Below, one piece after another: positions 18,999 to 36,904 of a DNA stretch of 36,904 nt; position 1 is the stretch's first letter, and every line of letters starts with the position of its first letter. This DNA is from a bacterium (lineage in GTDB: Bacteria; Verrucomicrobiota; Kiritimatiellia; CAIKKV01; CAITUY01). The stretch lies in the NCBI GenBank assembly GCA_037143175.1, contig JBAWZF010000028.1, forward strand, positions 1-36,904. The letters run 5' to 3'. The notes beneath the pieces are model-generated. The model did no database searches. It worked only from the letters and a program-made list of their open reading frames with translations, and was not told where the DNA came from. Position numbers and translations under genes: made by a program.

Positions 18999-18999
18999 T

Positions 19000-20091
19000 A
19001 TGCACCCCGCCATCGACATCCAGCGTCATCCCACCAGCCAGATTCAGGTCGGCTCGGTAATCGTTGGAGGGAACGCACCGATCAGCGTTCAGACCATGAC
19101 GAAAACGGACACCCGCAACGTTGCGGCCACCGTCATGCAGATTCAGGAAATTCAGGAAGCCGGCTGCGACATTGTCCGTCTCGCTGTCATCGATGAGGAA
19201 GCCGCACATGCACTGGCGGCCATCCGCAAGCAAGTAACCATCCCCCTGATCGCCGACATTCACTTCAACCATAAGCTCGCCCTGATTGCGCTTGAGGGCG
19301 GGATAGATGGCCTGAGAATCAATCCCGGCAACATTGGCAGCCTGGATCGTGTACGCGAGGTGGTCAGGGCCGCCGCTGGACGTCAGGTCCCCATCCGTAT
19401 TGGCGTCAATGGCGGCTCACTGGAAAAGGATTTACTGGAGAAATATGGGAGCGCCACAGCGGAAGCCCTGGTTGAAAGCGCCATGCGGCATGTTCGCATT
19501 CTCGAGGATGCCGGACATACCTGGATCAAGATTTCCGTCAAAGCGTCTGATGTGCCCCGTACACTGCAAGCCTACCGTCTGTTATCCAAAACGACTGACC
19601 ACCCGCTCCATCTCGGGGTCACCGAAGCGGGAACCCTCCTCAATGGAACGATTCGCTCCAGCGTGGCAATGGGTATGCTCATCGCCGAAGGTATTGGTGA
19701 TACCCTGCGCGTATCACTGACCGATTCCCCTATTCAAGAAGTCAAGGTCGGCCTCGAACTGTTGCGCTGCTTTGGCCTGAGGCCGCCGGGCGCCAGCGTT
19801 ATTTCATGTCCCACCTGCGGCAGAGTTCAGATCAATGTGGTGGCACTCGCCCAGCAGGTTGAAACGGAACTTGATAAATTCTATCGCACCAATCCATCGG
19901 CCCCCCACCCCACCGTGGCGGTCATGGGCTGCCTGGTCAATGGGCCGGGTGAAGCTCGTGAGGCCGATATCGCCATCGCCGGTGGACAAGGCAAAGCTGC
20001 CATTTATGTCAAAGGCGCATTTCTGGCCACGGTTCAGGAGGCTGACATTTTGAATCAGCTTATCGAACAGGTCAGAAACTGGAAGAGTTGA
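19000..20091 (+). CDS. ispG: 4-hydroxy-3-methylbut-2-enyl diphosphate synthase
   Basis: A 363-residue iron-sulfur enzyme (GcpE) that converts MEcPP to HMBPP, the penultimate MEP-pathway step. The N-terminal TIM-barrel begins with VGGNAPISVQTMTKTDT. The three 4Fe-4S cysteines are C270 and C273 (SCPTCGR) and C311 (GCLVNGPGE), with the conserved glutamate following. The length matches the short bacterial form without the inserted A* domain. The ATG at 19000 begins one base after the rseP stop; an ATG at 18970 inside rseP would add ten unlikely residues. Together with dxr, two of the pathway's seven steps are encoded in this operon. Confidence 0.96.
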   Translation: MHPAIDIQRHPTSQIQVGSVIVGGNAPISVQTMTKTDTRNVAATVMQIQEIQEAGCDIVRLAVIDEEAAHALAAIRKQVTIPLIADIHFNHKLALIALEGGIDGLRINPGNIGSLDRVREVVRAAAGRQVPIRIGVNGGSLEKDLLEKYGSATAEALVESAMRHVRILEDAGHTWIKISVKASDVPRTLQAYRLLSKTTDHPLHLGVTEAGTLLNGTIRSSVAMGMLIAEGIGDTLRVSLTDSPIQEVKVGLELLRCFGLRPPGASVISCPTCGRVQINVVALAQQVETELDKFYRTNPSAPHPTVAVMGCLVNGPGEAREADIAIAGGQGKAAIYVKGAFLATVQEADILNQLIEQVRNWKS

Positions 20092-22283: not shown

Positions 22284-22311
22284 CAGTGGGCAGAGGGCAG
22301 TAGGCAGAGGG
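22284..22311. repeat. heptamer tandem repeat, four copies
   Basis: Four consecutive 7-mers of the form CAGNNGG (CAGTGGG, CAGAGGG, CAGTAGG, CAGAGGG) fill most of the 37-nt gap between the transglutaminase-like gene and the ABC ATPase. The last GAGGG (22307-22311) lies 8 nt before the ATG at 22320 and can serve as its ribosome binding site. Confidence 0.65.
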
Positions 22312-22319
22312 TGTCCATT

Positions 22320-23039
22320 ATGATCAATATTCAGAATCTTAATAAACATTTCGGGGCGGTTCAGGCGGTCAAGGATTTGTCACTCAGCATCCCTGCCGGC
22401 GAACTATTTTGCTTCCTCGGGCCTAATGGTGCCGGCAAAACCACCACCATCAAGATGCTTACCGGTTTGATACGCCCGGATTCCGGCACTATTAAAATCG
22501 GAGAATTCAATATTCAGACCCAGTCCGTTGAGGCTAAGCGCATCATGGGTTACATCCCCGACATGCCCTTCCTCTATGAGAAACTCACGCCTGTCGAGTT
22601 TCTCAAATTTGTGGCCGGACTGTACAATATCACTCGCCCCGATTTAAATGATCATATCGAGGCGGCCCTCCAACAATTCGGGCTACAGGAGGCTAGGAAT
22701 GCCCTGATTGGAGAGTTGTCGCACGGCATGCGCCAACGCCTGCTTTATATGGGCACTTTTATCCATAACCCGAAGGTTATCCTGATTGATGAACCCCTGA
22801 TCGGGCTTGATCCCCATTCCATTCGCATGATCAAGGATCTCCTGCGCGCCAAGGTACGCGATGGTATGACCATTCTCCTGACTACCCATATTCTCGCCCT
22901 GGCCCAGGATATCGCCGACCGGATCGGCATTATCTCCGGTGGCAAACTCATCGCCCTTGGCACTTTCAGTGAACTGCAAATCCAATCCGGCAACAATGGC
23001 ACACTGGAAGAGATCTTCCTGAAACTTACCAGCATATGA
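22320..23039 (+). CDS. ABC transporter ATP-binding protein
   Basis: A 239-residue cytoplasmic ABC ATPase. The Walker A motif is GPNGAGKTT near residues 38-46, the ABC signature is the variant LSHGMRQR, Walker B is VILIDEPLIGLDP, and the switch His is in LLTTHIL. The subfamily resembles drug, lipid or antibiotic-peptide exporters of the CcmA/NatA type, which pair with ABC-2 permeases. That fits the next gene, which it overlaps by ATGA. The ATG at 22320 is preferred; a GTG at 22311 falls inside the heptamer repeat that provides the ribosome binding site. The cargo is unknown. Confidence 0.92.
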   Translation: MINIQNLNKHFGAVQAVKDLSLSIPAGELFCFLGPNGAGKTTTIKMLTGLIRPDSGTIKIGEFNIQTQSVEAKRIMGYIPDMPFLYEKLTPVEFLKFVAGLYNITRPDLNDHIEAALQQFGLQEARNALIGELSHGMRQRLLYMGTFIHNPKVILIDEPLIGLDPHSIRMIKDLLRAKVRDGMTILLTTHILALAQDIADRIGIISGGKLIALGTFSELQIQSGNNGTLEEIFLKLTSI

Positions 23040-24697
23040 CGCCGCTAACCGCCATCTGGATGAAGGATTATTTTGTGCTGCGCAATTTGCGGCGCATGCT
23101 ACAGCGCGAGTCGGTGTTTAAGGTGACCTTCATTCTCCTTTTTGCCACAGGGCTGATGGGAGGTTTCTTCGCCATGTTTATATCCGGCTTCCGGTTCCTC
23201 TCGGAAATGGGGGGAGGCGGCTTCATGATTACCCATCGCCTGTTCGCCCTTTTCTTCCTCGGGCTCGGCATCATGCTATTAATGTCCAACGTTATCACCT
23301 CCTATTCCACCATTTTTAAATCACGGGAAACCCTTTTTCTACTGACCACACCCCTCGATATACGCACCCTGGTGACCTATAAATTCATCGAGTCCAGCCT
23401 GCTCAGTTCCTGGGCCTTTTTCTTTCTGATGCTACCCTATACCGCCGCCTATGCCTGGCATGCCCGCCTTGGGCTACTGTTCCCTGTCTGGACGCTCCTT
23501 CTCGCCATCCCTTTTGTTCTCTTGTGTGGCGCCATCGGAACGCTGATTTCTCTGGCTGCCGTCCGGTGGTTTCCACGCAAAAGGATCTTCTGGGCCGTCA
23601 TCGCAGGCCTAGTATCGGTCGCAACGATTTATGGCATCATCCAAATCCGCCCGGTTCTAAACGAAGACGCCTCGTTCATCCTCAATCGCTTTCTGCCCGG
23701 CCTGCAACTCGCCTCCCACCCCCTCATGCCGAACAGCTGGGTTTCGGAGGGAATCATGGCACTGACCAGCGGCCAATGGACACGCGGACTCCTTTTATGG
23801 CTGGTCCTGATCACCAATACCGCGGTGCTGATGCTCCTCGTTCAATGGTTGGGGGAGCGAACCTTCTACAGTTCCTTCCAGAAGGAAGCGGGAGCGTCAG
23901 GACTTCGTCGCCGGTCCTCCGAACTGCTGGGCTGGCTGGACAAAAGCCTTGTGTTCCTTCCCTATGATATCCGGGGAATGGTCATGAAGGATATCCGCTC
24001 ATTCCTGCGTGATCCCATGCAATGGTCGCAGGCGCTGATCTTTTTTGGCTTACTAGCGATCTACTTCTCCAGTTTCCGATCCTTTCACTACAATCAAATG
24101 CCGGATCTCTGGCGAAACCTGATCGTGTTTCTAAACATCTTCAGTGTGTCATCGGTCATCTGCTCGCTGGCAGCCCGGTTTGTATATCCGCAATTAAGTT
24201 TGGAAGGTCACAGCTTCTGGATTCTGGGACTGGCACCAACAGGCATGCGTCGTATTTTGCTGACCAAGTTTTCCCTGGCGGCGTTGGCCATGGTCACCGT
24301 CAGTGCGGGCTTAATGGGGCTGGCGGCCTGGATGCTTCAGGCGGGATGGGCGTTAACTGTGCTCTCAGTGGGGCTGGCGATCGCGATATCGCTTTCCGCT
24401 GCGGCACTGGCCACCGGGCTGGGTGCCATATTCATTGACCTCAAACAACCCAATCCGGCGGCTATCATCTCGGGATTCGGGGGGACAATGAACCTCGTGT
24501 TCACCTTGGGGTATATGCTCAGTGTTATTCTACCATTCGGATTTATCTGGCACTGGCATGTTACCAGCGGATTTAGCGGCACTCCGTTCCATCAAGCCAA
24601 CATCGCCGCCACCCTCTGGGTTGTGATCCTCTCCCTCACAACGATCATCATTCCCCTCTGGCTCGGCATCCGCAGCCTTAAGCATCGGGAATATTAA
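23036..24697 (+). CDS. ABC-2-type exporter permease
   Basis: A 553-residue polytopic membrane protein with roughly 12 hydrophobic segments, arranged as two similar halves around a cytoplasmic region near 290-325 (KSLVFLPYDIRGMVMKDIRSFLRDPMQW). This is the layout of large putative ABC exporter permeases, where one chain supplies both membrane halves. There is no extracytoplasmic domain of any size. It overlaps the ATPase by four bases (ATGA) and ends the plus-strand run that began at purA; 26 nt then separate it from the converging mntP, with no clear terminator hairpin. The cargo is unknown. The adjacent transglutaminase-like protein makes a peptide or envelope substrate conceivable, but this is a guess. 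Confidence 0.82.
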   Translation: MTPLTAIWMKDYFVLRNLRRMLQRESVFKVTFILLFATGLMGGFFAMFISGFRFLSEMGGGGFMITHRLFALFFLGLGIMLLMSNVITSYSTIFKSRETLFLLTTPLDIRTLVTYKFIESSLLSSWAFFFLMLPYTAAYAWHARLGLLFPVWTLLLAIPFVLLCGAIGTLISLAAVRWFPRKRIFWAVIAGLVSVATIYGIIQIRPVLNEDASFILNRFLPGLQLASHPLMPNSWVSEGIMALTSGQWTRGLLLWLVLITNTAVLMLLVQWLGERTFYSSFQKEAGASGLRRRSSELLGWLDKSLVFLPYDIRGMVMKDIRSFLRDPMQWSQALIFFGLLAIYFSSFRSFHYNQMPDLWRNLIVFLNIFSVSSVICSLAARFVYPQLSLEGHSFWILGLAPTGMRRILLTKFSLAALAMVTVSAGLMGLAAWMLQAGWALTVLSVGLAIAISLSAAALATGLGAIFIDLKQPNPAAIISGFGGTMNLVFTLGYMLSVILPFGFIWHWHVTSGFSGTPFHQANIAATLWVVILSLTTIIIPLWLGIRSLKHREY

Positions 24698-24723
24698 CTT
24701 TTATAATTGCAGGATTGCGGGGA

Positions 24724-25284
24724 TTACATCATCAGATGCTGAATGAGGATCTTGAGGCCGATTCCGATTAAAACCAGCCCACCAAAAATCTCGATTTTCT
24801 TTTCGAAGAAATGACCGCAGGCATCTCCAATGTAGACGCCCGCCAGACAGAGGAGGAACGTCACGGACCCAATGAGAATGATCGGGGTGATAATCGCCAC
24901 CTTGATCATGGCAAAGGTGACCCCGACGGCCAGGGCGTCAATACTGGTGGCAATTCCCAACACCAGAAGCACACCCGCTTTGAGGGGATTGTCGGCCTTC
25001 TCGGCATCATCCAATTGAAACGCCTCATAGATCATTTTTCCACCAATGATGCTCAACAGCACGAAAGCAATCCAGTGATCCACATTGCACAGCAGTTGCT
25101 GGAGGCCAAGCCCCGCTAACCAGCCAATAACCGGCATGACGGCTTGAAACCCGCCAAAGGTCAGGGCAATCATAAGCGCATGCTTGAGCCGCAGGTTCTT
25201 AATGGCAATCCCACTGGTAACTGAAACAGCAAACGCATCCATAGCCAACCCGATAGACAATAGAAGGATTTCTATAAAACTCAT
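24724..25284 (-). CDS. mntP: putative manganese efflux pump MntP
   Basis: A 186-residue inner-membrane protein of the MntP (YebN) family with six hydrophobic helices. The family's internal duplication is visible as two Asp-containing helices: GLAMDAFAVSVTSG near 12-25 and GIATSIDALAVGVTFA near 109-124. Both aspartates are needed for Mn2+ export in E. coli MntP. The length is normal. Its ATG overlaps the stop of the phosphatase gene (ATGA), placing it last in the long minus-strand operon. No manganese riboswitch or MntR site is seen directly upstream, so regulation would come from the operon promoter. Confidence 0.92.
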   Translation of the reverse strand: MSFIEILLLSIGLAMDAFAVSVTSGIAIKNLRLKHALMIALTFGGFQAVMPVIGWLAGLGLQQLLCNVDHWIAFVLLSIIGGKMIYEAFQLDDAEKADNPLKAGVLLVLGIATSIDALAVGVTFAMIKVAIITPIILIGSVTFLLCLAGVYIGDACGHFFEKKIEIFGGLVLIGIGLKILIQHLMM

Positions 25285-25916
25285 ATCAACTCCAGTACGG
25301 CATCAAATGAATCACACTGGTAAGTGGGAACTTCGTTGCCAGGTGCTCCGTATCCATAGGTAACAAAAATGCTATTTGCCCCGGCCCGCCGGGCTGACTC
25401 CAAGTCGGTATAGTTATCCCCCACCACCCAGGTATTCCGGGGAGTTACTCCGGCAGTAGCCATGCAATTAGTGATCATATCAGGGGCAGGCTTTAACACC
25501 GGGAAACGATCTGCCGCCAGGACGGTTATGAACCAATCATAGATTCCCAGATGCCTCAGGATAAGATCACAGGATTCGGCTGGCTTATTCGTAGCCACTG
25601 CAAGGATGTGGCCCCGCTCCCGCAGACACTTAAGGCCCTCAAAGACCCCGGGATACAACCCCGTTTGATCCACAGCATGCGCCCGGTAGAGCGGCATCTG
25701 GACTTTCAAGGCTTCATCCACATCAATGCGGGTTCCCTGCAAGGCACGGGTCACCAGCATCCTCACCCCATTACCAACATAACCGCGGATGGACTCCGGG
25801 GCCAATGCCGGAAGGCCAAAATGCCTTCGCATCAGGTTAACGGCCGTAGCCAGATCCTGACAGGAGTCCACCAGGGTTCCATCAAGGTCAAAAATGATTA
25901 ATTTTCCAGGTTCCAC
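25281..25916 (-). CDS. gph: phosphoglycolate phosphatase-like HAD hydrolase
   Basis: A 211-residue HAD phosphatase, the group that removes 2-phosphoglycolate formed in DNA repair or by oxygenase reactions. Motif I is FDLDGTLVDS at 9-18, motif II is ATNKP, motif III is the Lys of KPAPD, and motif IV is VVGDNYTDLESARRAG. A C1 cap (about 18-85) lies between I and II. I chose the GTG at 25916, which puts motif I at the N terminus; the longest open frame starts at 26057 but would overlap the upstream gene by about 100 nt and lacks conserved residues. The exact substrate within the Gph/PpaX group is uncertain. Confidence 0.87.
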   Translation of the reverse strand: MEPGKLIIFDLDGTLVDSCQDLATAVNLMRRHFGLPALAPESIRGYVGNGVRMLVTRALQGTRIDVDEALKVQMPLYRAHAVDQTGLYPGVFEGLKCLRERGHILAVATNKPAESCDLILRHLGIYDWFITVLAADRFPVLKPAPDMITNCMATAGVTPRNTWVVGDNYTDLESARRAGANSIFVTYGYGAPGNEVPTYQCDSFDAVLELI

Positions 25917-25954
25917 ACCACTACCCCAGACGCAGCTTCTCAAATTGTGATTTA

Positions 25955-26512
25955 TTAAGTCACGCGAGCAAAGACCGTCAAGCCTAGCACCACCAAAACA
26001 AAGCCCAGCACAACTCCTGCGGCTCCAGCCAACCGGCAACTGCCATCTGTGGCACAAAACTTTTCAACCGCAAGCCGAAAGCGATAGGGCGACAGGACCA
26101 ATAGAGTTCCCGCAACCACCCAGCAATACGCCAGCCCGGCGATAAGCCAGGTAGCCTTGGACGCAGAAAGACATTGGATGCTCAGAACAGGATTAGCCAC
26201 CAGCAACAGCAGCCCGCCCAAGGCCCTGGCGGCAAGAAGTTCATTCATGAACACCAGAATCAGGCCCAGCACAACCGGAGTCAAAATCCAAAGCAACCAC
26301 TTATAGTCACCAATAAAGTTGCCCAGCGGCATGGCATTGACTTCAACCGCAGACCACCCTAATGCCATGGCGGACAGAACGGCACCCAGCCAAAAATTAC
26401 GAGGAAACAGCTTAAAAAGTTTCCGAACTGTTTGCGGGGCCAGCACTAGTGGCGCATGCAAAGCCACATAGACGCCCCCGATCCAAAGCGATAATTCTGC
26501 CAATGACATCAT
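25955..26512 (-). CDS. small polytopic membrane protein, function unknown
   Basis: A 185-residue hydrophobic protein with about six predicted membrane helices: roughly 5-25, 38-58, 70-90, 92-108, 120-140 and 160-180. Charged residues are few and lie in the short loops. I do not recognise a family and see no catalytic motif. Its ATG overlaps the miaB stop (ATGA) and 38 nt separate it from the phosphatase gene, so it belongs to the minus-strand operon. It could be an accessory to the ABC system encoded upstream, but nothing in the sequence proves this. Confidence 0.75.
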   Translation of the reverse strand: MMSLAELSLWIGGVYVALHAPLVLAPQTVRKLFKLFPRNFWLGAVLSAMALGWSAVEVNAMPLGNFIGDYKWLLWILTPVVLGLILVFMNELLAARALGGLLLLVANPVLSIQCLSASKATWLIAGLAYCWVVAGTLLVLSPYRFRLAVEKFCATDGSCRLAGAAGVVLGFVLVVLGLTVFARVT

Positions 26513-27891
26513 AACGACTTAACCTCTTTCAGTGTCCCATATAACGTTTGAGCTCCGACCTTTTCAACCAAGACATGAACTATATCACCAACCTTCACCT
26601 CTTCGCGAGGGTCAAAGATCGTGATTTTGTTGGTACTCGACCGGCCCGCCCACCGCGTTTTATTCCGCAGGCTTGGCCCCTCAACAAGCACCTCAACGGT
26701 CTTACCTATGCACGCCCGATTCAGGGCCTCACCCATCACATCCTGGTCAGCCAGAATCACGTGATTCCTCCGGAGTTTCTCTTCAGCAGAAATATCGTCT
26801 TCCAAGTCTGCGGCCGGAGTTCCCTCGCGGGGTGAATACTTGAAAATAAAAGCATTATCAAACTGGGCGGCGGCCATCAGCCAGCGCGTTGCCTCAAAAT
26901 CCTCCTCCGTTTCGCCAGGAAATCCAACGATCACATCGGAAGTTAGTGCCAATGTCGGCACAGATTCACGCAGGCGTCGCACGGCGGCAAGATAATCGTC
27001 CGCCGTATACCCGCGTCGCATCTTTTTCAGAATTCGATCAGAGCCCGATTGGACCGGAAGATGGAGGTGGTCACACACGCCCGGTATCTCCCCCATGGCA
27101 CGGGCAATTTCAGCACTGCAGCCTGTAGGATGTCCGGACGTGAATCGAATCCGCCTGATTCCGGGCACTTGACTCACGGCCTCCAATAAACGGGGAAGTG
27201 GCTCCACAAAACCCCTTGCCGAATGAAACGTTTCGGGCCAGACCTGATTTTTCATTCCATAGGACATCACACTCTGGCCCAGCAAGGTTATTTCGCGACA
27301 TCCATGCTCTGCCAGGGCACGGACTTCACGCAGCACACTTTCAGCCGGGCGGCTCCACTCCGCACCCCTCACCGTGGGAACAATGCAATAGGCACAATGC
27401 CGGTCACACCCCAGGAGAATATTCACATAGGCCGAGAGTGACCCGCCCAAATGTCCGACCAAGGCTTCAGCCTCCCGGTCGGCCTCTCCAGTGTCCACTA
27501 ATGGCCCCCGTCCTTCCGCCACCGCCTCCATCATGGCCGGCAACGCGCTTAACCGGTGGGTGCCCACCGCCAGATCCAACCCCTTGACCTTTTTAAATAT
27601 CTCCGTTCCCAGCCGTTGCACCATACAACCGACGGCCCCGACCATCAGACCGGGATGCTCCCGTTTAGCCGCGACGATCAAGCGTAGTTTGCCCAGCGCC
27701 TTATCTTCGGCTTTCCCACGAATACTACATGTGTTAACCAGAATGACGTCCGCTTCCGATTCATTCGCCGCCAACTGATATCCATGCCGGACCAGCAGAG
27801 CCCCCATCGCCTCACTGTCACGCTCATTCATCTGGCACCCGTAGGTTTTGATATGGACGTTTTTTATGATTTTATCGGATCGTGTCATCAT
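26509..27891 (-). CDS. miaB: tRNA-2-methylthio-N6-isopentenyladenosine37 synthase
   Basis: A 460-residue radical SAM methylthiotransferase that adds the 2-methylthio group to i6A37 of tRNAs reading UNN codons. Both iron-sulfur clusters are accounted for: N-terminal C19 (TYGCQMN), C55 (NTCSIRG) and C89 (GCMVQ), and the radical SAM cysteines C162, C166 and C169 (CDRHCAYC). The radical SAM barrel continues through LLGQSVMSYG and SDVIVGFPGETEEDF, and a TRAM domain ends the protein. The first motif favours MiaB over MtaB or RimO. The ATG directly abuts the stop of the AsmA-like gene, so expression is coupled to that operon. Confidence 0.95.
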   Translation of the reverse strand: MMTRSDKIIKNVHIKTYGCQMNERDSEAMGALLVRHGYQLAANESEADVILVNTCSIRGKAEDKALGKLRLIVAAKREHPGLMVGAVGCMVQRLGTEIFKKVKGLDLAVGTHRLSALPAMMEAVAEGRGPLVDTGEADREAEALVGHLGGSLSAYVNILLGCDRHCAYCIVPTVRGAEWSRPAESVLREVRALAEHGCREITLLGQSVMSYGMKNQVWPETFHSARGFVEPLPRLLEAVSQVPGIRRIRFTSGHPTGCSAEIARAMGEIPGVCDHLHLPVQSGSDRILKKMRRGYTADDYLAAVRRLRESVPTLALTSDVIVGFPGETEEDFEATRWLMAAAQFDNAFIFKYSPREGTPAADLEDDISAEEKLRRNHVILADQDVMGEALNRACIGKTVEVLVEGPSLRNKTRWAGRSSTNKITIFDPREEVKVGDIVHVLVEKVGAQTLYGTLKEVKSL

Positions 27892-29739
27892 TCACTCTTT
27901 CTTCAAATTGGGCAAAGGGCGCCACTCTGGCTTAGTAAAGGTTCCTGTCAGGGAATATCCCCCCTGCCGATTTTGGGAGAGCAAAGAAATGACGGCCCGC
28001 CCTGTGGCGTTTTTATTACTCCTCAACACAGGTTTCAAGAGCCAATCTAAAGAGCCATCCAAGCCACAACTCCCCCGCGCCAACAAACCCAGACTTCCAG
28101 CTTCAAAAACCAGATCCTTGCTGTTTATTTTATTATCTTTAAGTTCAAATGAGAAACGAGCCTCGGTAGGCAGATCCGGCAAATCCAGATCCCGAGACAA
28201 GCCCCCCCATTTCTCTAACAGACCGGCGGCAAGCGGGCTCTGGAATACCCGTGCATCCCGGATCGTTAATTGTCCCTGTCCCACAAGGTTTGCGCCAATC
28301 CCGCCCACTTCCAGGTTTCCGAAAATTTTACCACCCATCCGCCACCCAAGGTTGGTACTGACCAACTTCAATAACTCGTCGGTATCGGCATTGATAATCT
28401 CGGCTTTGACCTCTGCCGTCCAATTCGTTCCCGCCGGATCCGCCACGAATACGGCAGACCCACTGGCAAAGCCTCCCCCGATATTTCCCCGAAAGTCTGA
28501 AACCGAGTGGGTATATCCGTGATTATTATAGGTGAAGGAATAATTATTAAAAAAGAGGCCCTTATAACCGATTTTCGCACCTTCGACCACGGCCTCTACT
28601 TTCGAATTCTCGGGGTGAGAATACCCGATACGCCCCTTGGCGGCCAGCCGGGCGCCCTCCTCTAAATTCCAGGAGCTCATCAGGTATTCCTTCAGGCCGA
28701 TAAGTCGCAGAACGGCCGCCACGTTGACCTCCGAGTTAACCTGAAAATCCGCCATACCGGAAGCAAAGTCAAAATCCACCTGCCCCCTTGCATGACGCCC
28801 ACCCATGGTCAGACTGAACGGAGCCATGCTCAACCGGTTAGTCCCGTTACCCAAAACATACTCCAGATTCATGTTGGCAAAACCAATAACCGCACCAAGA
28901 TAGGCATAATTTGAAGCCTGAACACGGCCCTTGGCCGTTACTGAAAGCGCAGGCTTCGTTACTGCTTCAAAAGTAAAATCCATCCGGGGTGGGTTTGCAG
29001 GAAACGAAAATCGACCAAACACCCCAACCGCCTCAGGAAAATAAATGGCGCAAATTGGAATCAAGGCATGGGGGTCAAAAGTGGTGATAAGTCTACCGGT
29101 CAATTGACCTTCATTCCGCCATGCCAGCGTCCCTTCGAGCGCCCCAGAGTGCAACTCCTGCCCCACTTTCCCGGATACTCGTGACAGGAAGACTCCCTCA
29201 TGATCGACTCGCACTGCCGACTTAACCTGCTCCACCCAAACCCCCAGAACTTCAAAATTGAACAACGCCACATCCAAGTCGAATTCTCTTAACGTTTTGT
29301 TTTCGTGATTATCCAAGGAAAGCCCTGCGGTTATCGCCGGATTTCTGTTGGGTCCAAGACTAGTCGAACTCCACAATGGTCGTATTATGCCGTCATAGGC
29401 CCTGAGCTCTTTAATCCGCGTATGTCCTGATCTGGGCCGCTCAAAAAGATGATAGAGAAGGCGCAATTCACGGGTTTCAAGAAAGGGGGGGCCGGGCATC
29501 CCTTTACGATACACGCTGACATTTCGAGCCTTCAGCCCGCCGCCCAGATCCAGATAAACCTCGCGCGCCTGGACAAAATAGTCACCACTGTTTGCACTGG
29601 CCAAAATCCACCTGGTAAGAAAGGAAGGAAAACCGAGTACGGCCAACCCCAGTATAGCCGCCACCCCGCCCACAAGCAGGATCATGAGCACATGCCCCTG
29701 CCAGGCGAACCGTTTTAATCTGGGAATAAGCATGCTCAT
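27892..29739 (-). CDS. AsmA-like large periplasmic protein
   Basis: About 615 residues: one N-terminal membrane helix (roughly 17-38) and then a long, beta-rich extracytoplasmic body without obvious enzymatic motifs. The C-terminal 100 residues (KDNKINSKDLVFEAGSLG.. and GTFTKPEWRP) resemble the AsmA-like C-terminal region of bridge-like lipid transfer proteins, which carry phospholipids between inner and outer membrane. I give this at domain-family level only. The ATG at 29739 starts the protein just before the membrane helix and leaves a 22-nt gap to the upstream gene; the longer frame from 29802 would overlap that gene. Together with the ABC genes it may move lipids or polysaccharides through the envelope (inference). 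Confidence 0.65.
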   Translation of the reverse strand: MSMLIPRLKRFAWQGHVLMILLVGGVAAILGLAVLGFPSFLTRWILASANSGDYFVQAREVYLDLGGGLKARNVSVYRKGMPGPPFLETRELRLLYHLFERPRSGHTRIKELRAYDGIIRPLWSSTSLGPNRNPAITAGLSLDNHENKTLREFDLDVALFNFEVLGVWVEQVKSAVRVDHEGVFLSRVSGKVGQELHSGALEGTLAWRNEGQLTGRLITTFDPHALIPICAIYFPEAVGVFGRFSFPANPPRMDFTFEAVTKPALSVTAKGRVQASNYAYLGAVIGFANMNLEYVLGNGTNRLSMAPFSLTMGGRHARGQVDFDFASGMADFQVNSEVNVAAVLRLIGLKEYLMSSWNLEEGARLAAKGRIGYSHPENSKVEAVVEGAKIGYKGLFFNNYSFTYNNHGYTHSVSDFRGNIGGGFASGSAVFVADPAGTNWTAEVKAEIINADTDELLKLVSTNLGWRMGGKIFGNLEVGGIGANLVGQGQLTIRDARVFQSPLAAGLLEKWGGLSRDLDLPDLPTEARFSFELKDNKINSKDLVFEAGSLGLLARGSCGLDGSLDWLLKPVLRSNKNATGRAVISLLSQNRQGGYSLTGTFTKPEWRPLPNLKKE

Positions 29740-29761
29740 ACGTAAACCCGGGGACACAAAC

Positions 29762-31615
29762 TCAATGCGCTTCAACCAGAGGAAGCGACAGGGTCTGAGC
29801 AATTTCCTTCTTTAAAACAAACACCACATCCTGGCCCTGAATCATCGAGTAGACACCATTCGTATCACAGGCTCCGCCAATGATGACGGTCTTTTGGATA
29901 CCACTTGTACCAGTTAACCCGAAAGTGATCCGCGGCGAGGACTCTTCAATGCCATACGACAAGACATTGGTTACCGCATTCATGCTTTCAATCCGTTCCG
30001 CCCGTAACGAAGCGGCCAGGCTCAACAAGGCCGGGATGGTGCCCTTGACAATCCGTCCTTCCGGGGGTGAGTTTGCAATCCAAATCCCATCATTCCCAAG
30101 CGTCACGGTTTCCTCGCGACCATTTCGAGACAAAGTGATCCGTCGCACCTGATCGGAGGCGATTTCAAACATCCGGCAATCCATATAAGGACGCGGATCA
30201 GCCAGCGAAAGGGCCGGCCGGGACAGGGGCCAAACCGTATTTAACTCCTGGGGATGAACTTCCATTAAGGTTTTATTTTCCTCACAATAGACCTGATTAT
30301 TGGATCCCCCTGTAGCCGGAACAGAAAACCGATAACTCCAGCTGGTTCCCTCCGGCACCTGCGCGAGAGACTGATTAGTAGTCACGCCTAATGGCTGAAC
30401 AGTCGCAATAGCCAGGCGACAGGGAAATGCCGGCAAGACGCCCATGAGCGTATTGGTTGTGCCCCCACTCAAAGACTTCAACACCTTGAGATTGCAAATA
30501 GCTCTTAAAAGCCCTCCCACAGCCTGGGCATCCGCCTTGAACCGAAAAGGCTCCAGAATCAGCCATCCGTTTTTTTCGTTCTTTTCAAGCACCAGTTTAG
30601 AATCCCCTTCCCGTAACAGGATTGACACAATCTCTGCAGGATCAGCATTACAAAGACGGCGATCTCTTAATAACTCGAGCTTAATATTCTGCAATGAAAG
30701 GACATCACGGTTAATGGAACAGACGGACGCAACATCACTGATCTTGGCATAAACAAGATTCGGCATATCTTGCCGGGTCTTCCCCACGGTCAATACCAGG
30801 GGAGTTGCGCCTCCTTCATACGTCAGTGAAATTTGCATCATAGCCTCGTCGGCTGTGAATCCATAAACGGCAGGGTCAGCAGGAGCCTCAACGGCACCAA
30901 AAGCATCCACTTTCAAGGCCATAAGTGACTGTAGCAACTGCTCCACCCTCCGGTTATCGGCTCTGGCATCAATAGGTTGCTGGATGCTCCACTGTCCTTC
31001 CCGAAGTGCCAACTGCACAAACCCGCCCGTGTACTTCACTTCCAAACGAGTCACCCGCTTGAGGCCGGCAGGAAAAACGGAACGATCCCTGAAGCTATCG
31101 AGGTCCAGGGGGAGAATGTCGGACACCTTGCACGTTGTCCCCATTACGTCCACACCGTTTTTTGAGCGGAGATAGACCAGATCTCCCAGCGGGGATTCAT
31201 CACCCACCAGAATTTCGTCAACCCGGAATTCGTTCCCTACCAAAAGCTGGGCACGCGGAATTTCCAAGCCGAAACTGGCGGCGGACAGATGGCGTTGAAG
31301 AAGACGCTCAGGACTCAGGGTTTCCCGAATACGGGTATCGCCCAACGCCTCAATAATCCGATTGATCCGGGCTTCATCCGCCCGTGCTTCAACAGGTCGG
31401 ATTAAAAACCACTGGCCCTCACGCCGGGCACATTCAATGGAAATAGTCCCTGCCGTGATCGCAAGTTGCGTAATGGAGCTCGGGCTGAATTGCAGCAAGG
31501 GGGCCTCCAGCGGCAATGCCCTCGAAACGGAATCAACATTCCGTTCAAAAACAACAATAAACAAACTGATGATAACAACCAGAGCCAACAACCACAGAGT
31601 AGGTTTCCAACTCAT
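29762..31615 (-). CDS. DUF4340-domain protein
   Basis: A 617-residue protein with a single N-terminal membrane anchor (about residues 6-25) and a large, presumably periplasmic, region of repeated DUF4340-type modules. The recurring pattern is a Trp followed by I/L-x-x-P, as in GQWFLIRPVEARAD (68-81), GQWSIQQPIDARAD (about 208-221) and NGWLILEPFRFKAD (about 345-358), so at least three modules can be seen. DUF4340 genes are regularly found directly after GldG-type ABC genes, as here, where the ATG overlaps the permease stop by ATGA. The biochemical role is not known. It is likely a periplasmic partner of that transporter. Confidence 0.85.
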   Translation of the reverse strand: MSWKPTLWLLALVVIISLFIVVFERNVDSVSRALPLEAPLLQFSPSSITQLAITAGTISIECARREGQWFLIRPVEARADEARINRIIEALGDTRIRETLSPERLLQRHLSAASFGLEIPRAQLLVGNEFRVDEILVGDESPLGDLVYLRSKNGVDVMGTTCKVSDILPLDLDSFRDRSVFPAGLKRVTRLEVKYTGGFVQLALREGQWSIQQPIDARADNRRVEQLLQSLMALKVDAFGAVEAPADPAVYGFTADEAMMQISLTYEGGATPLVLTVGKTRQDMPNLVYAKISDVASVCSINRDVLSLQNIKLELLRDRRLCNADPAEIVSILLREGDSKLVLEKNEKNGWLILEPFRFKADAQAVGGLLRAICNLKVLKSLSGGTTNTLMGVLPAFPCRLAIATVQPLGVTTNQSLAQVPEGTSWSYRFSVPATGGSNNQVYCEENKTLMEVHPQELNTVWPLSRPALSLADPRPYMDCRMFEIASDQVRRITLSRNGREETVTLGNDGIWIANSPPEGRIVKGTIPALLSLAASLRAERIESMNAVTNVLSYGIEESSPRITFGLTGTSGIQKTVIIGGACDTNGVYSMIQGQDVVFVLKKEIAQTLSLPLVEAH

Positions 31616-33870
31616 TGCCGGGCAGTCTCCTTTCGGAAGGGTGAAAGGATTGCGCGCCGATCCCGCCGTGCCAATGCAACAAAAATACCGGTAAAAATCA
31701 AGAGAAGCGGCATGGCTACCACGGTCAGAATAAACGTCATGAACCGGTCACCAGACTCGATTCGTAAATTAAATATACCGCTCAAATCCTCAAACCCTAC
31801 AAGAGTCCCCCCGCGCTCTTGAAGCCATTCCAGGGCATTGACGAAAAACGACTCATTTCCACCCGCTAAACAGGTATTGGCGGCAAACTGGGAGTCCCCG
31901 AACACCACCAGACGCACAGGCTTGATATCCATTGCGATTTCTGATGAGAGACCTTTCTCCACACAAACGGCCAACGGCAACGGCCCCGAACGATCATACC
32001 CCTCATTGAATTGGGGTGGACTTTGGTCACGATCCCCCTCGGCCCAGCTTTTAGTTGAACTGAACGCCAATTCAATCACACGCGGCCGATCCGCATGATC
32101 GCTAAGACTGCCTCGCTGGGTATCCGGAAACAGAGGCTCCACTGACCGGGGCATGTAAAAAGTTGACACCAAGCCATCCAAGCCATCCGTAATGGGATGC
32201 CGGCCATACCGGATCACGGAAACTTCACCCAACCCGAAAGCCGGAGATCGCTCCCGACTGGACGTCAGTAAGGAAGCGCTCTTGGAATCAAGAATACGAT
32301 CCGTTCCCAACCGGATGCCCCATTCCGCAAGCAGCGACTCCAAACCGCTATGGGAACCAAAATCGAGCAATACCATCAGGCGCCCGCTTCGCGCCAGATA
32401 GTCTCGAATTTTCCCAACCTCCCACGAGGCTAATTGACGTGCCGGACCGGCAATCACGAGCACCGCACAATCATTCGGCACCGCCTCCACGGATCCCAGC
32501 AATAACGGACGCACCTCGGACTGCCGTTCGCGGATGATCCCGGCAATTTCGGAATAGCCACTGTAGCCCGTAAAATCAGAAATACTTCGCTCGTCGTGAC
32601 CGGTCAGGAAATAAACGACAGGGCCTTTTTCCTGAACAACGGATCGCAGAGCCATGATCAGCTCGGATTCCAAAACAGCGCCCAGGGAAGCCCCCCGTGG
32701 ATCAGGTCGTGCATCTCCGGACGCAACCCGATCCAGCCCCTTGATCGGCAACACCATGTAGCGGGTTCCACAATTCACGATCAGAACATTGGGCTGACGA
32801 ATTTTATACTGGCTCACAAGCTCACGCGTCCGGCTGAGCTCGGTGGATTGGTCAACCATTTCCACGCGAAGCAGGGCGTGGGCAAATTGATACTTCTCAA
32901 CAACCCGCCGCGCCAGAATGGCCTGGGGATCCCCCACCGGGGCGAGAAGAATAATTTGAACAGGCGTTTTGACATGATTCAACGTCTTCACAACTGCGGC
33001 AGGCAAAGGACTATTCCCCGCCGCACTGACATCCCTCCGTACTGGATGAAGTACGGACAGAAAATTCACAAGCCCCCCCAGCATCATCACCAGCAGAAAT
33101 GACACGGCCACATTCAACGCACCAGAAGTCCGCCGATAACGGGTCCACTGCAATAACCGAACATTTACAAACAGCAGAATAGCCATACCGCTCAGGTAGA
33201 ACGTCAACGCACGGCTATCGATCACGCCAGTCGAAAAACTTGAAATATGCGAAGCGACCGCCACCAATCCGGTTGAGGCCGCATCCGTGCCGCCCCCGAT
33301 CCAACTACGAAAGGAGCCCCTGAAAACAAGCATCGCCCCGGTTAGAAAGGTTGCCACAATGGCAGTGGTCTGCCGGCGGAAAAACAGCGACCAGAAGATC
33401 CCCGTCAAGGTCATCAACCCCGACAGCAGAATGAGAATCAACACTCCTGACAACCACATGCCGACATCGATTCCACGCCAACCGGGATAGAGCGCTTTCA
33501 GAATCCACGGATAGAGGACTGCCGGGAAAGCCAGAAGCAGAATCAAGACAAAGCCTGCCCCGGCTTTGGCGACCACCACCTCAACCTCGCTGACGGGAGC
33601 CGTCAACAAAAGTTCGAGGGTGCCCCGTTCCTGCTCATCCCCTAGAAGCTTCACAGAAACGGCCGAAGCCAATACAAGAAAGGCCATCCAGAACAACATT
33701 CCGTTGAAGGTGATTTCAGTTGTCAACAGTCCACGCCCGCCCATGGTCATGGCAAATACCCAGAACACCATCCCCGTCACAATAAGGTAGCCCGCTCCCA
33801 TCAAATAGAATGCAGGCAGCGACAGCCAGGATCGCAAATCACGCCGGGCGAGTATCCTGATCGCATGCAT
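31612..33870 (-). CDS. fused GldF-GldG-type ABC permease/auxiliary protein
   Basis: A 752-residue fusion. Residues 1-240 form an ABC-2 permease of the GldF type with about six helices and the conserved DEQERGTLELLLTAPVS segment. A seventh helix at about 250-270 leads into a large extracytoplasmic GldG-type auxiliary domain (about 285-700, with RELVSQYKIRQPNVLIVNCGTRYM and VYFLTGHDERS). A final membrane helix (about 725-747) anchors the C-terminus. In Bacteroidetes GldF and GldG are separate and needed for gliding; in other phyla such fusions exist without motility, so gliding should not be inferred. The ATG shares one base with the ATPase stop (TGATG) and its own stop overlaps the DUF4340 gene. 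Confidence 0.87.
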   Translation of the reverse strand: MHAIRILARRDLRSWLSLPAFYLMGAGYLIVTGMVFWVFAMTMGGRGLLTTEITFNGMLFWMAFLVLASAVSVKLLGDEQERGTLELLLTAPVSEVEVVVAKAGAGFVLILLLAFPAVLYPWILKALYPGWRGIDVGMWLSGVLILILLSGLMTLTGIFWSLFFRRQTTAIVATFLTGAMLVFRGSFRSWIGGGTDAASTGLVAVASHISSFSTGVIDSRALTFYLSGMAILLFVNVRLLQWTRYRRTSGALNVAVSFLLVMMLGGLVNFLSVLHPVRRDVSAAGNSPLPAAVVKTLNHVKTPVQIILLAPVGDPQAILARRVVEKYQFAHALLRVEMVDQSTELSRTRELVSQYKIRQPNVLIVNCGTRYMVLPIKGLDRVASGDARPDPRGASLGAVLESELIMALRSVVQEKGPVVYFLTGHDERSISDFTGYSGYSEIAGIIRERQSEVRPLLLGSVEAVPNDCAVLVIAGPARQLASWEVGKIRDYLARSGRLMVLLDFGSHSGLESLLAEWGIRLGTDRILDSKSASLLTSSRERSPAFGLGEVSVIRYGRHPITDGLDGLVSTFYMPRSVEPLFPDTQRGSLSDHADRPRVIELAFSSTKSWAEGDRDQSPPQFNEGYDRSGPLPLAVCVEKGLSSEIAMDIKPVRLVVFGDSQFAANTCLAGGNESFFVNALEWLQERGGTLVGFEDLSGIFNLRIESGDRFMTFILTVVAMPLLLIFTGIFVALARRDRRAILSPFRKETARQ

Positions 33871-34601
33871 CAGTGGCCGCCCCCTATTACAGACGCCTTA
33901 ACCACATCCGTCAACGTTCGAACCCCATACTGCATAATCAGTTCTGCCGGGGAGGCAAAGGCGACAAGCTGCCCTCTGCTGAGGATCATCACCCGGGAAC
34001 CAAGCAACTCGGCTTCCGCCATATCATGGGTTGAGAAAACCATCGTGCGTTCGCCTTTCAGCGGGGATAGCAAGGCATGAATCCGCTCAACATTCATCGG
34101 ATCCAGTCCCAGGGTGGGCTCATCGAGCAGAATCACTTCCGGTTCACCGGCAAGACTGTCGGCCAGCAAAACGCGACGGGTCTCCCCTTTCGAGAGATTG
34201 CCGATCAAGGCACGTTCCAGTCCGGCCAACCCGCAACGCCCGACCATTTCCCGGAGGCGCTTGACTCGCGTCCTCCCGTAAAGTCCACGCAACCGGGCAC
34301 GGAAAGTGAGATATTCCATGACGCGCATTTCGGGGTAGGTAGCATCTTTCTCGGGGAGATATCCGACTAGACGCCGAACACGCAAAGACTCGGTGACCCC
34401 GTCATGGCCATCAATCTGAGTTCTACCGGATGTGGGCGCCATATAAGTGGACAAAATGCGAAGTAATGTCGTCTTACCAGCCCCGCTCGAGCCCACAAGA
34501 GCGATGGATTCGCCCTTCTGAACCTGAAAAGAAAGCCCCTCAAGCGCCGTCACCGGACCAAATTTCTGCGTTACGTTTTCAACATCAATCATATCAACCA
34601 T
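33870..34601 (-). CDS. GldA-like ABC transporter ATP-binding protein
   Basis: A 243-residue ABC ATPase: Walker A GSSGAGKTT near 38-46, signature LSKGETRR (a degenerate LSGGQ), Walker B VILLDEPTLGLDP and switch His in STHDM. It supplies energy to the GldF-GldG-type permease encoded immediately downstream. The start is decided by the promoter: the longest frame would begin at 34655, inside the -35 box, so the ATG at 34601 (or 34592) must be used. It is the first gene of an eight-gene operon running to 24724. Cargo unknown. Confidence 0.9.
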   Translation of the reverse strand: MVDMIDVENVTQKFGPVTALEGLSFQVQKGESIALVGSSGAGKTTLLRILSTYMAPTSGRTQIDGHDGVTESLRVRRLVGYLPEKDATYPEMRVMEYLTFRARLRGLYGRTRVKRLREMVGRCGLAGLERALIGNLSKGETRRVLLADSLAGEPEVILLDEPTLGLDPMNVERIHALLSPLKGERTMVFSTHDMAEAELLGSRVMILSRGQLVAFASPAELIMQYGVRTLTDVVKASVIGGGH

Positions 34602-34631
34602 GCCGCCTGCCGTGAGATGAACAAAAACCCT

Positions 34632-34660
34632 ATTATCGCCACCTAATAAGCCCACGTCAA
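34632..34660 (-). promoter_or_regulatory. strong promoter of the gld-like operon
   Basis: On the minus strand TTGACG (34660-34655), a 17-nt spacer and GATAAT (34637-34632) match the sigma70 consensus at 5 of 6 positions in each box. Transcription would begin about 34625, giving a leader of roughly 25-35 nt. No other good promoter is apparent inside the following tightly packed genes. Confidence 0.6.
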
Positions 34661-34690
34661 GCCAGCAACAATCCCGACAACATCGGCCAT

Positions 34691-35440
34691 TTACCCTTTT
34701 TTCATACGATGATATTGAACCATCCTGATGTTTTTCGGGCAGGGTTTATCCTGAAAGGCAATTTCCCATCTCAAGTGGGGGTCTTGAAACCGAATCAGGC
34801 CCAAATCCAACCATTCAGGATCAAACCAGCCCCCAACCCAACTCAACGAGGCGTCATGATCCTCAGCATTATGATAGGCAATTGCCTTTTTGAACCGACG
34901 ATAACCTGATGACCCACCACAGTCCTCAGGAGGACATGCTTTTTCGCCCCCAATACAGCGGGGATACACTTCACCTATTTTGCGGGGCAAAATCACCTCC
35001 AACACTACCGAATGATGCCAACCGTCACCAAAATCATAGAGATAGTCAGCGTTAAGATTGTCGGGCTTGAGTGTAAAAAAACGGGAAATATTGGTCATCC
35101 AGCCCGGCAAAGTGGCATATCCCATGATGTCTTCATCAGCCCCGCCGTCATCAGGAATTCCAATATGGTCTTCTGCCGCGGTTTTAGGATTGCGAAGAGT
35201 AAAGAGATGGAGATGGTAGTCGAGCCACCCAAAAGCATCCGTTATGGCACAATGGAGATCCCAAAACGAATAGCACCCGGGCACCTGAATCCGTCTCCAA
35301 ACAGGTGGATCAGTCTCAAGTAAGGTCACTTTGAACTGATAAACCTTCAAGAATGGCTGCGGACAGGAATACACACCTGAGGATGTAGTCCGTTTTACAG
35401 ACTTACTTGACTTGGCTAAATTTGTAGGCTTGGTTGACAT
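34691..35440 (-). CDS. plasmid pRiA4b ORF-3-like protein
   Basis: A 249-residue protein of the pRiA4b ORF-3 family, a domain common on plasmids and transposons and scattered in chromosomes, with no settled biochemical function. Family blocks visible are FKVTLLETDPPVWRRIQVPG, FWDLHCAITDAFGWLDYHLHLF, YLYDFGDGWHHSVVLE and CIGGEKACPPEDCGG. About 30 Ser/Lys-rich residues precede the domain. The start is set by GAGGGAG four nt before the ATG at 35440; the open frame extends upstream but without conservation. It is encoded alone between the gld-like operon and a decayed region, which fits a recently acquired gene. It ends about 30 nt before the operon promoter. Confidence 0.9.
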   Translation of the reverse strand: MSTKPTNLAKSSKSVKRTTSSGVYSCPQPFLKVYQFKVTLLETDPPVWRRIQVPGCYSFWDLHCAITDAFGWLDYHLHLFTLRNPKTAAEDHIGIPDDGGADEDIMGYATLPGWMTNISRFFTLKPDNLNADYLYDFGDGWHHSVVLEVILPRKIGEVYPRCIGGEKACPPEDCGGSSGYRRFKKAIAYHNAEDHDASLSWVGGWFDPEWLDLGLIRFQDPHLRWEIAFQDKPCPKNIRMVQYHRMKKG

Positions 35441-35461
35441 AAACTCCCTCAACTCACGGTT

Positions 35462-35815
35462 TTGTCTTCTAAGGGATATTGTTATTCTTGCCGCCGAAAT
35501 TTCCAAGTTTATTCCAACGCCATCATTGGGTGGCAGGAACAAGACTCCTTCACACTCAACGACGGTGGCACAACCACTAGCGCCGCATCCCCGCCAACCA
35601 ACTCGGCGATAAAGACAAGCGATACTGTATCGAAGTTGCGATCCCATTCAAAGAACTGCCGACCTATACTCGTGGTAATGCGGCCCAAAAAGGAGATATG
35701 CTGAATTTCCTGATTACACGCATGTCTCTGGATGGCGATGCCTTCACGGCGATCGCGCCTTTTCCGGTACTTAGCTGGGGTCATAACATTTGGAATTATT
35801 CCCCGCTGGAATTAG
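35462..35815 (+). pseudogene. remnant of a CBM9-like carbohydrate-binding domain
   Basis: The frame open from 35581 reads GDKDKRYCIEVAIPFKELP, then GDMLNFLITRMSLDGD, and SWGHNIWNYSPLELG. This is the pattern of the C-terminal half of a family 9 carbohydrate-binding module (EVAIPF.EL ... G...NF...R ... W........LELG). Upstream, the frame 35462-35578 (NFQVYSNA..GWQEQDSFTLNDGG) could be an earlier part of the same domain, displaced by a frameshift near 35580-35600. No start codon, signal peptide or catalytic domain remains, so I call it a decayed fragment. It is divergent from the pRiA4b-like gene. The similarity is by pattern only. Confidence 0.45.
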
Positions 35816-35840
35816 GTAAGCAATTCGCGTACGTTATCCG

Positions 35841-35975
35841 TTACTTTAGAAATACGCCGATTAAGCATATCAGTCCCCCAATTACAAATAAAATGGGTCC
35901 AACAGCCGCCCTAATCATGGGAACTATTGTCAGAAACGAACCTACTATAAACAAACATCCGCCGACTATTATCAT
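35841..35975 (-). CDS. possible 44-residue double-membrane-helix protein
   Basis: An ATG at 35975 opens a short frame to TAA at 35841. The 44 residues are almost entirely hydrophobic, in two blocks (about 2-19 and 24-42) separated by MIRAAVG, and end in a Lys. This is the layout of a small two-helix membrane protein. The ribosome binding site is poor (GAG about 10 nt upstream) and no relatives are recognised. A random frame in A+T-rich sequence cannot be excluded. Confidence 0.3.
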   Translation of the reverse strand: MIIVGGCLFIVGSFLTIVPMIRAAVGPILFVIGGLICLIGVFLK

Positions 35976-36036
35976 TGTGTGTAATTTGCTCGTATCTATT
36001 AAAACTAAAAGTCAACGGTAAGTGGCGAGGATGCTA

Positions 36037-36110
36037 AGCCGTACATCTTGCGTAGGGGTACGGCTAACTTCATCTACCAAAGGTGGGTTCGGTATCGGGG
36101 GAGACCCACC
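36037..36110. repeat. two tandem hairpins in the decayed region
   Basis: AGCCGTAC (36037-36044) and GTACGGCT (36058-36065) form a perfect 8-bp stem with a 13-nt loop. Seventeen nt further, GGTGGGT (36082-36088) and ACCCACC (36104-36110) form a perfect 7-bp stem with a 15-nt loop. No gene is convincing across them. They may be a structured RNA, a recombination or insertion site, or a dispersed repeat. Confidence 0.45.
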
Positions 36111-36440
36111 ACCTACTTCGCTGATAGGGATACTATACTACACGCCCTCATTTTATATCAAGTTAGAATTTATTCAGGGTGAAAGCATGGAGGTAAGGCG
36201 GATAATCTTCTGCCGCCCTGTGGTGACGAGTCTGCCGACAGCATGAAGCAACAGGGGGCGGGAATTGGGAGGAAATTGGGCGTATCATCCACAAGGATAA
36301 TGCGCTCCGGCACGCTCAAACTTAATCAATCTGCTTTGGTTAATGTGCTCATAACGGGTGAACAATACCCATTTCAATCTTGCATCATAATCATTCATTA
36401 ATTCGTCAGCGACGTAAACTCCGAGGTGTGGTTCGCCGAA
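36111..36440. other. gene-free stretch before the toxin-antitoxin pair
   Basis: About 330 bases that hold no supported gene. A minus-strand frame follows the toxin stop in phase (it includes MNDYDARLKWVLFTRYEHIN and ends near 36292), but has no ribosome binding site or recognised family. No promoter or terminator stands out. Confidence 0.4.
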
Positions 36441-36704
36441 TTATTCGTAGTGCGTCCACAGTCGGATGATTTTAACCGTCTTGACGTCTTCCAGAACCTG
36501 ATACACCAGTCGATACTGTATATTGATGCGACGAGAACATGCGCCAGCCAGATCTCCAACTAGTTTCTCAAAGGGCGGAGGATGTTGATAAGGATTCAGT
36601 TCCAGAATCTCAAGTAATCGCTCGGCTTTTGGTTTCAATCCAGACGCCTTGAGCTTCTTGGCGTCCTTTTGGGCCTGTTTCGTGAAGACAAGCGTCCAGC
36701 TCAC
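36441..36704 (-). CDS. yoeB: YoeB-family mRNA interferase toxin
   Basis: An 87-residue RelE/ParE-superfamily toxin of the Txe/YoeB group, which cleaves mRNA on the ribosome. The sequence follows the family from WTLVFTKQAQKDAKKL through PPFEKLVGDLAGACSRRINIQYRLVYQV to the C-terminal THYE, with the catalytic Arg (SRRI) and the C-terminal His-Tyr present. Two GTG codons (36707 and 36704) could start it. The second lies 8 nt after AAGGAG and overlaps the antitoxin TGA as GTGA, so I prefer it. Toxin after antitoxin, with overlapping ends, is the classical order that lets the antitoxin be made first. Confidence 0.92.
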   Translation of the reverse strand: MSWTLVFTKQAQKDAKKLKASGLKPKAERLLEILELNPYQHPPPFEKLVGDLAGACSRRINIQYRLVYQVLEDVKTVKIIRLWTHYE

Positions 36705-36904
36705 CACTTAAGCTCCTTGCTGCATTTTCCAACAGGAGCCTTCATTCCCTCCAGAATGGACTCACGCATTCCTGGAATGGCTGTCAAGAATAATGTCTCC
36801 TGAATCGCACTCCAATCCTCACCCGAAACCAGGACGGCAGAATGCCGTTTTCCGGTAATCTGTATCGTCTTGTGGGATTCCGCCACATCATCCAGAAGAG
36901 AGTA
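36701..36904 (-). CDS. yefM: YefM/Phd-family antitoxin, cut by window end
   Basis: The visible 67 codons read into the window edge without a stop: YSLLDDVAESHKTIQITGKR, then HSAVLVSGEDWSAIQETLFL, PGMRESILEGMKAP and the terminal ELKW. This is the YefM pattern of DNA-binding N-terminus, VLVS.EDW..IQETL core and toxin-binding tail. A GTG at 36886 could be taken for a start, but the family sequence clearly continues upstream (YSLLDDV), so the true start lies beyond 36904; about 15-20 residues are missing. The protein neutralises YoeB and, with it, represses its own operon; that operator is outside the window. Confidence 0.9.
   Translation of the reverse strand, partial: YSLLDDVAESHKTIQITGKRHSAVLVSGEDWSAIQETLFLTAIPGMRESILEGMKAPVGKCSKELKW

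Follow-up and report, generated by a model that had tools for sequence, protein, structure and literature searches.

A GldAFG-DUF4340-AsmA-like gene unit kept together in Kiritimatiellia as a candidate ABC-assisted lipid bridge

The current candidates for moving phospholipids outward are proteins of the AsmA family (PMC11784454, PMC10665443), and how phospholipids enter such bridges, at the cost of ATP or not, is a standing question, for which LptBFG and LolCDE have been argued to be unlikely feeders and passive flow is the alternative (PMC10900882). GldA, GldF and GldG, in turn, are described as critical for gliding and as lacking a clear function (PMC10202324). Here we analyse a stretch of 36,904 nucleotides (nt) from a bacterium of the class Kiritimatiellia, phylum Verrucomicrobiota (assembly GCA_037143175.1, contig JBAWZF010000028.1, positions 1 to 36,904; the window), in which genes for a GldA-type ATP-binding cassette (ABC) ATPase, a GldF-GldG fusion protein, a DUF4340 protein and an AsmA-like protein follow one another on the minus strand. 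A combination of GldG, DUF4340 or an ABC transporter with AsmA was not found described in the titles and abstract openings of the literature, a scope outside which most subscription journals lay; the component families are known, and their combination is new and conserved enough to be functional.

The four open reading frames (ORFs) comprise the ATPase (33870..34601; 243 amino acids (aa), with an alternative GTG start at 34655), the GldF-GldG fusion (31612..33870; 752 aa), the DUF4340 protein (29762..31615; 617 aa) and the AsmA-like bridge candidate (27892..29739; 615 aa, or 636 aa from an alternative TTG start at 29802). The first-pass annotation, made from the sequence alone, had proposed four envelope genes with overlapping or nearly touching ends, and this arrangement was confirmed: ATPase and fusion overlap by 1 nt, fusion and DUF4340 gene by 4 nt, and 22 nt separate the DUF4340 gene from the AsmA-like gene.

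The AsmA-like gene is kept beside the others throughout most of the class. Adjacency was scored when both genes lay on the same strand and the AsmA-like start fell within 1000 nt of the DUF4340 gene. A set of relatives comprised 60 regions from 55 of the 57 class genomes (G021 and G046 had no match to either query protein), from which five regions without a DUF4340 match and one cut region (of G008, counted via its other region) were left out; here the AsmA-like gene directly followed the DUF4340 gene in 49 of 54 genomes in which a DUF4340 region was present. A second set of 62 named loci from Kiritimatiellae, Lentisphaerae, Verrucomicrobia and one Spartobacteria, including Pontiella and Pontiellaceae strains, shares contigs with the first and is not independent of it; after removal of six loci in which the DUF4340 gene lies within 300 nt of the contig end and four without a DUF4340 match, 49 of 52 testable loci keep the pair, 48 as adjacent genes and one (L136, 11438-15802) as a single uninterrupted ORF that spans both and has a hydrophobic segment where they join. 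As proof of contact this ORF was set aside: it comes from one metagenome-assembled genome, an in-frame ATG near 13288 is a possible restart, and, were both helices to insert, the half after the junction would end up on the wrong side. Outside the class but within the phylum, 33 regions with a long DUF4340 protein were picked by hand, one per genome, and adjacency was found in 18 of the 32 that remained once a cut region was left out. The gene order is nearly fixed within the class; elsewhere in the phylum it is kept in about half of the regions sampled.

By profile homology the AsmA-like protein is related to the AsmA-like or repeating beta-groove superfamily. The window protein itself matched no Pfam family at E up to 1; among 38 aligned relatives, however, YhdP was matched by five, AsmA by three and DUF748 by two, and hhalign aligned the family with Escherichia coli AsmA (96.6%, E 6e-10, 355 columns) and YhdP (70.9%, E 4e-5, 219 columns), with 0.1% for each of the controls TamA and CsrD. 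The protein has a single hydrophobic segment (residues 38-56 in the 636-aa numbering), and its predicted model (predicted local distance difference test, pLDDT, 81) consists of an N-terminal membrane helix followed by about 30 beta strands, so that the single N-terminal anchor and long beta-sheet characteristic of the superfamily are both present. The bridge-like lipid carriers LPD-3 and Vps13 both appear among the VIA-align results for this model, LPD-3 as the top row (Z 9.7 over 247 residues, at a root-mean-square deviation (rmsd) of 4.9) and Vps13 as a fragment scoring Z 6.6; TamAB reached E 0.39 in Foldseek and does not appear among the VIA-align rows listed, which is no evidence against kinship. 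Hydropathy alternates along the strands of the AsmA-like protein to a degree reached by none of 2000 permutations for the family mean and by 10 for the window sequence; for the DUF4340 protein the corresponding counts, 362 and 125 of 2000, are not beyond chance. A groove made of a single layer and greasy on one face would have such two-faced strands. At the usual strand spacing of 0.48 nm, about 30 strands would form a groove of some 14-15 nm, and longer open frames, of some 820-880 aa, are common in the class and would reach further. The profile homology, a model whose top match, in a tie on Z, is LPD-3 and the two-faced strands support a bridge. Within the class neither of the two outcomes that would have overturned the first-pass annotation came about: apart from the exceptions given below the AsmA-like gene stays in the neighbourhood in relatives, and the fold predicted for its product would suit a bridge.

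On the ABC side, Pfam bears out an ATPase and a permease fused to a periplasmic auxiliary domain. The ATPase matches ABC_tran (E 2.8e-28) and keeps Walker A (GSSGAGKT), the signature (LSKG), Walker B (VILLDEP) and the switch histidine (STH). The fusion protein consists of an ABC-2 permease half, a helix, the GldG domain (ABC_transp_aux) and, at the C-terminus, another helix; it matches ABC2 permease domains and ABC_transp_aux (E 7.1e-28), for which the 98.1 bits against PF09822 exceed the gathering score of 34.7. The fusion itself occurs only locally: a best GldG ORF of at least 690 aa is present in 12 of the 53 loci of relatives (13 of 54 if the window is counted), in none of the 62 named loci and in one of 40 in the phylum set. 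A search for related loci with the window GldFG protein alone gave 12 pattern matches, none confirmed, and a plasmid search with it gave two weak records. An alignment of 24 GldG proteins yielded no stretch conserved enough, and a closer set of eight was used instead.

The DUF4340 protein matches PF14238 in three stretches (E 7.3e-37, 127.8 bits against a gathering score of 25). Its repeated modules, noted early on, number four in the predicted model (pLDDT 87), where they stand in tandem as alpha/beta units behind one N-terminal membrane helix. Foldseek returned sliding clamps (E about 2e-4 at a template-modelling (TM) score of about 0.1) and VIA-align a thioesterase-like protein (Z 5.6, the best) and YycH (Z 4.8); these matches lie below noise level, and we therefore claim no fold. 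The DUF4340 domain of one Verrucomicrobium spinosum gene was scored essential (PMC12283558).

We tentatively read the operon as an ABC-assisted bridge that moves lipid, most likely phospholipid, outward, and we put the chance of this being right a little short of even. GldA would hydrolyse ATP beneath the inner membrane and so power the GldF-GldG permease, which, at the inner membrane, would raise or flip its lipid substrate, most likely a phospholipid. In the periplasm the GldG domain and the four-module DUF4340 protein would serve as a stalk or gate. A hydrophobic beta-groove in the AsmA-like protein, whose N-terminal helix would be its anchor, would give the lipid a track to the outer membrane. 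Direct support exists for the genes, their conserved order, the AsmA-superfamily homology, the predicted fold and the two-faced strands. We infer contact between ABC part and bridge, a role of DUF4340 as the link between pump and bridge, phospholipid as the cargo, an outward direction and loading driven by ATP. Lipid export is the best reading, with phospholipid as the favoured cargo and lipoprotein as a live rival; of the earlier suggestion of a lipid or polysaccharide export machine, the lipid part is preferred, and polysaccharide export finds no support of its own. It is a more doubtful proposition that GldAFG-DUF4340 acts as an ATP-driven loader dedicated to an AsmA-type bridge, encoded in one operon in Kiritimatiellia and other Verrucomicrobiota, and in LolA-poor lineages such a loader may also carry lipoproteins. 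Lipopolysaccharide is an unlikely cargo, because LptF/LptG, present in 57 of 57 class genomes (in the window genome at 2567-3697 of the window and on contig C1), leave it to another machine; the operon permease matches ABC2 and GldF models and has no PF03739 match, and no LptF/LptG-type permease is thus encoded in the operon.

A number of observations weigh against the lipid-bridge reading. On Z, ApoB100 (9.6, rmsd 11.4) and VDAC (9.1, rmsd 24.3) draw level with LPD-3, and many beta-barrels score between Z 7 and 8.7, so that the match to a bridge stands barely above background; the sole Foldseek match of the AsmA-like model under E 0.001 is ApoB100 (E 1e-4). The hhalign comparison with E. coli TamB gave 0.4% and no profile match, and two-faced strands fit other sheets too. 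Another lipid route is at hand, since MCE proteins are present in 55 of the 57 class genomes, including that of the window. Among the relatives, adjacency is lacking in G013, G025, G040, G051 and G053, of which G013 has the ABC-side genes and no AsmA-like profile match at all and G053 has both genes, apart; among the named loci, L152, L168 and L174 have no adjacent AsmA-like gene. The 14 of 32 regions outside the class without adjacency all come from genomes that match the AsmA-like profile (13 at E <1e-30, G060 weakly at E 6e-5), in G173 two ORFs downstream and in the others elsewhere in the genome; a match elsewhere may represent another AsmA-family protein, not the orthologue. None of seven hand-picked operons with a single-module DUF4340 protein (six from outside-class or phylum-sample genomes, one from class genome G027 or G012) has an AsmA-like neighbour. 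Finally, the f15 genomes (L087, L101 and L111) keep GldG-DUF4340 with no adjoining GldA, and their AsmA-like profile match lies elsewhere.

Co-occurrence across the phylum adds little weight. In a sample of 144 genomes DUF4340 was found in 110 and the AsmA-like profile in 111, with 102 genomes having both, eight DUF4340 only, nine the profile only and 25 neither (100, 10, 4 and 30 if only strong profile matches are counted). Of the 20 listed DUF4340-negative genomes, however, 14 belong to one family, and by family the figures become 35 both, four DUF4340 only, one profile only and one neither among 41 listed families, a tally that leaves out 13 to 14 genomes per search whose families are not listed. 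For these two reasons we do not treat association at the level of genomes as strong evidence in its own right, and the Fisher P values, which are uncorrected for relatedness, were given no weight.

Some of these exceptional loci show arrangements of their own. L218-L224 represent a second operon type: GldA is combined with an ORF of permease size, a long GldG-like protein and a DUF4340 protein of one module, and no AsmA-like gene adjoins. In the three f15 genomes GldG-DUF4340 follow a YbbR-like gene, accompanied in L101 and L111 by a gene for a CdaA-like diadenylate cyclase (both by eye), and a weak, unspecific GldF-type match lies elsewhere in the genome. The gene after DUF4340 in L168 (13432-14538) encodes a 368-aa membrane protein which, by eye, resembles a flippase of the lysylphosphatidylglycerol-synthase type.

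The persistence of GldG-DUF4340 without an adjoining GldA or AsmA-like gene in the f15 genomes, the lack of an AsmA-like neighbour beside single-module DUF4340 and the 14 non-adjacent regions outside the class would all suit a different arrangement, in which the ABC part is a signalling or mechanical complex that gates envelope enzymes and the AsmA-like protein works independently as a passive bridge, with nothing but the operon in common with that complex. FtsEX is an ABC-type complex of this kind and not a transporter. The near-fixed adjacency of DUF4340 and AsmA-like genes through the class speaks against such uncoupled parts, as does, weakly, the single DUF4340-AsmA-like ORF of L136, and we regard this alternative as unlikely, though one to be taken seriously.

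Alternatively, the machine might substitute for LolA and take lipoproteins instead of free lipids to the outer membrane, and we consider this rather unlikely. LolA (PF03548) was matched in just four of the 57 class genomes, not in that of the window, while six of 14 controls matched; a divergent LolA could nevertheless evade PF03548, and LolCDE-type genes lay outside the search. The best NCBIfam match of the AsmA-like protein is the GspN model, but at E 2e-4 and 20.9 bits it stays below the cut-off of 50, and it is confined to residues 40-121. GldJ and GldK are outer-membrane lipoproteins. In Flavobacterium johnsoniae the stability of both needs GldA, and that of GldK needs GldF (PMC9127263), and the AsmA-like GspN of Acinetobacter delivers lipoproteins to the cell surface (PMC12802150). 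Methylacidiphilum is said to be without LolA and other Verrucomicrobiota to possess it (PMC10260701), and the latter report weighs against the lipoprotein reading.

Export of a polysaccharide or another polymer is improbable: GldF carries ABC-2-type permease domains, a class that also exports polysaccharides, but the eight genes of the unit (see below) include none for polymer synthesis and the bridge candidate shows homology to the AsmA family. A true gliding-motility module, as the first-pass annotation already doubted, is the least credible of all, because GldA and GldF, although the gliding models are the top NCBIfam matches of ATPase and permease, score far below the equivalog cut-offs (TIGR03522, 198.3 against 402.6 bits; TIGR03518, 90.5 against 288.5 bits). 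TIGR03518 matched nine genomes and, below its cut-off, also nine of the 14 controls, and its matches are therefore unspecific. SprA, the sole marker of the type IX secretion system searched, was found in 0 of 57 class genomes, a result that is uninformative because none of the 14 controls matched either.

The unit does not end with the AsmA-like gene. MiaB tRNA methylthiotransferase (26509..27891, minus strand) starts at the base directly after it, and the three genes that follow on the same strand overlap in turn: a multi-helix membrane protein of 185 aa (25955..26512; weak DUF2065 match, below the cut-off), a HAD-family hydrolase (25281..26057, the longest frame, its real start perhaps later) and the manganese efflux pump MntP (24724..25284). 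Because these four genes adjoin the AsmA-like end without a gap, the unit probably comprises eight genes; the four envelope genes are present in the order first described, but they probably do not form the whole unit, which would run on via MiaB to MntP. MiaB, the hydrolase and MntP are probably merely co-transcribed with the envelope genes. In the relatives' set MiaB lies directly 3' of the AsmA-like gene in 19 of 55 AsmA matches (window included), in the named set in four of 50. A simple scan gave five hydrophobic segments in the 185-aa membrane protein, whose family occurs in 26 of 61 scanned sources (window included), often directly after the AsmA-like gene or MiaB. A promoter-like site (TTGACG-17-GATAAT, 34632..34660, minus strand) matches the consensus at 10 of 12 positions and is well placed 5' of GldA. 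Sites of this class number nine in 24000-36904, compared with 9.7 (standard deviation 3.4) in shuffled sequences; since they occur at chance frequency, the site is no evidence of promoter strength, and the claim of one strong promoter is not sustained.

With respect to the other envelope systems of the class, the AsmA-like profile was matched in 54 of 57 genomes (all but G013, G046 and G176) and TamB in 19, the window genome giving no TamB match. The window also contains a second ABC pair, an ATPase with a PF16949 (ABC_tran_2) protein (22311-24697), and, on the plus strand (13430-20091), a run of genes of the undecaprenyl-diphosphate-synthase, CdsA-type, Dxr, M50 protease and GcpE/IspG families after adenylosuccinate synthetase, that is, lipid-carrier and phospholipid precursor genes on the contig of the operon. 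A 171-aa protein (10863-11378) matches the IMS domain of Y-family polymerases over no more than positions 1-86 of 148 and possibly represents a truncated gene.

An ABC transporter kept beside an AsmA-like gene through a whole class provides a concrete candidate for a bridge loader, and the combination is useful because it makes the question of bridge loading testable. If the lipid-bridge reading were true, GldAFG would gain a biochemical role, which could explain the drop of GldJ and GldK upon loss of GldAFG, and AsmA-family transport would have an energy-coupled entry gate of a kind not named in the portions of the cited papers used here.

Compared with the systems described so far, the AsmA-like protein resembles E. 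coli AsmA and YhdP in its profile match (355 and 219 columns), N-terminal anchor and richness in beta strands; in E. coli, no ABC transporter genes were seen among the annotated neighbours of these two, and YhdP has 1266 aa compared with 615 aa here. The Lpt system combines extraction by an ABC transporter with a periplasmic groove, and the operon, if our reading is true, would be like LptB2FG-LptC-LptA-LptD in this outline, but its permease belongs to a different family and the genome has its own LptF/LptG. With GldA-GldF-GldG of F. johnsoniae, whose GldA signature region is LSKGYRQR (PMC9127263), it shares an ATPase with the LSKG signature, an ABC-2 permease and a GldG domain; it differs by scores below the cut-offs, the fusion of permease and GldG and the linkage to DUF4340 and AsmA-like genes, with no indication of gliding from its context. 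The mlaEFD-tolC-tamB locus of Veillonella likewise places ABC transporter genes beside an AsmA-type gene, although there an MCE-type ABC system is joined with TamB and the two are proposed to work in opposite directions (PMC10665443).

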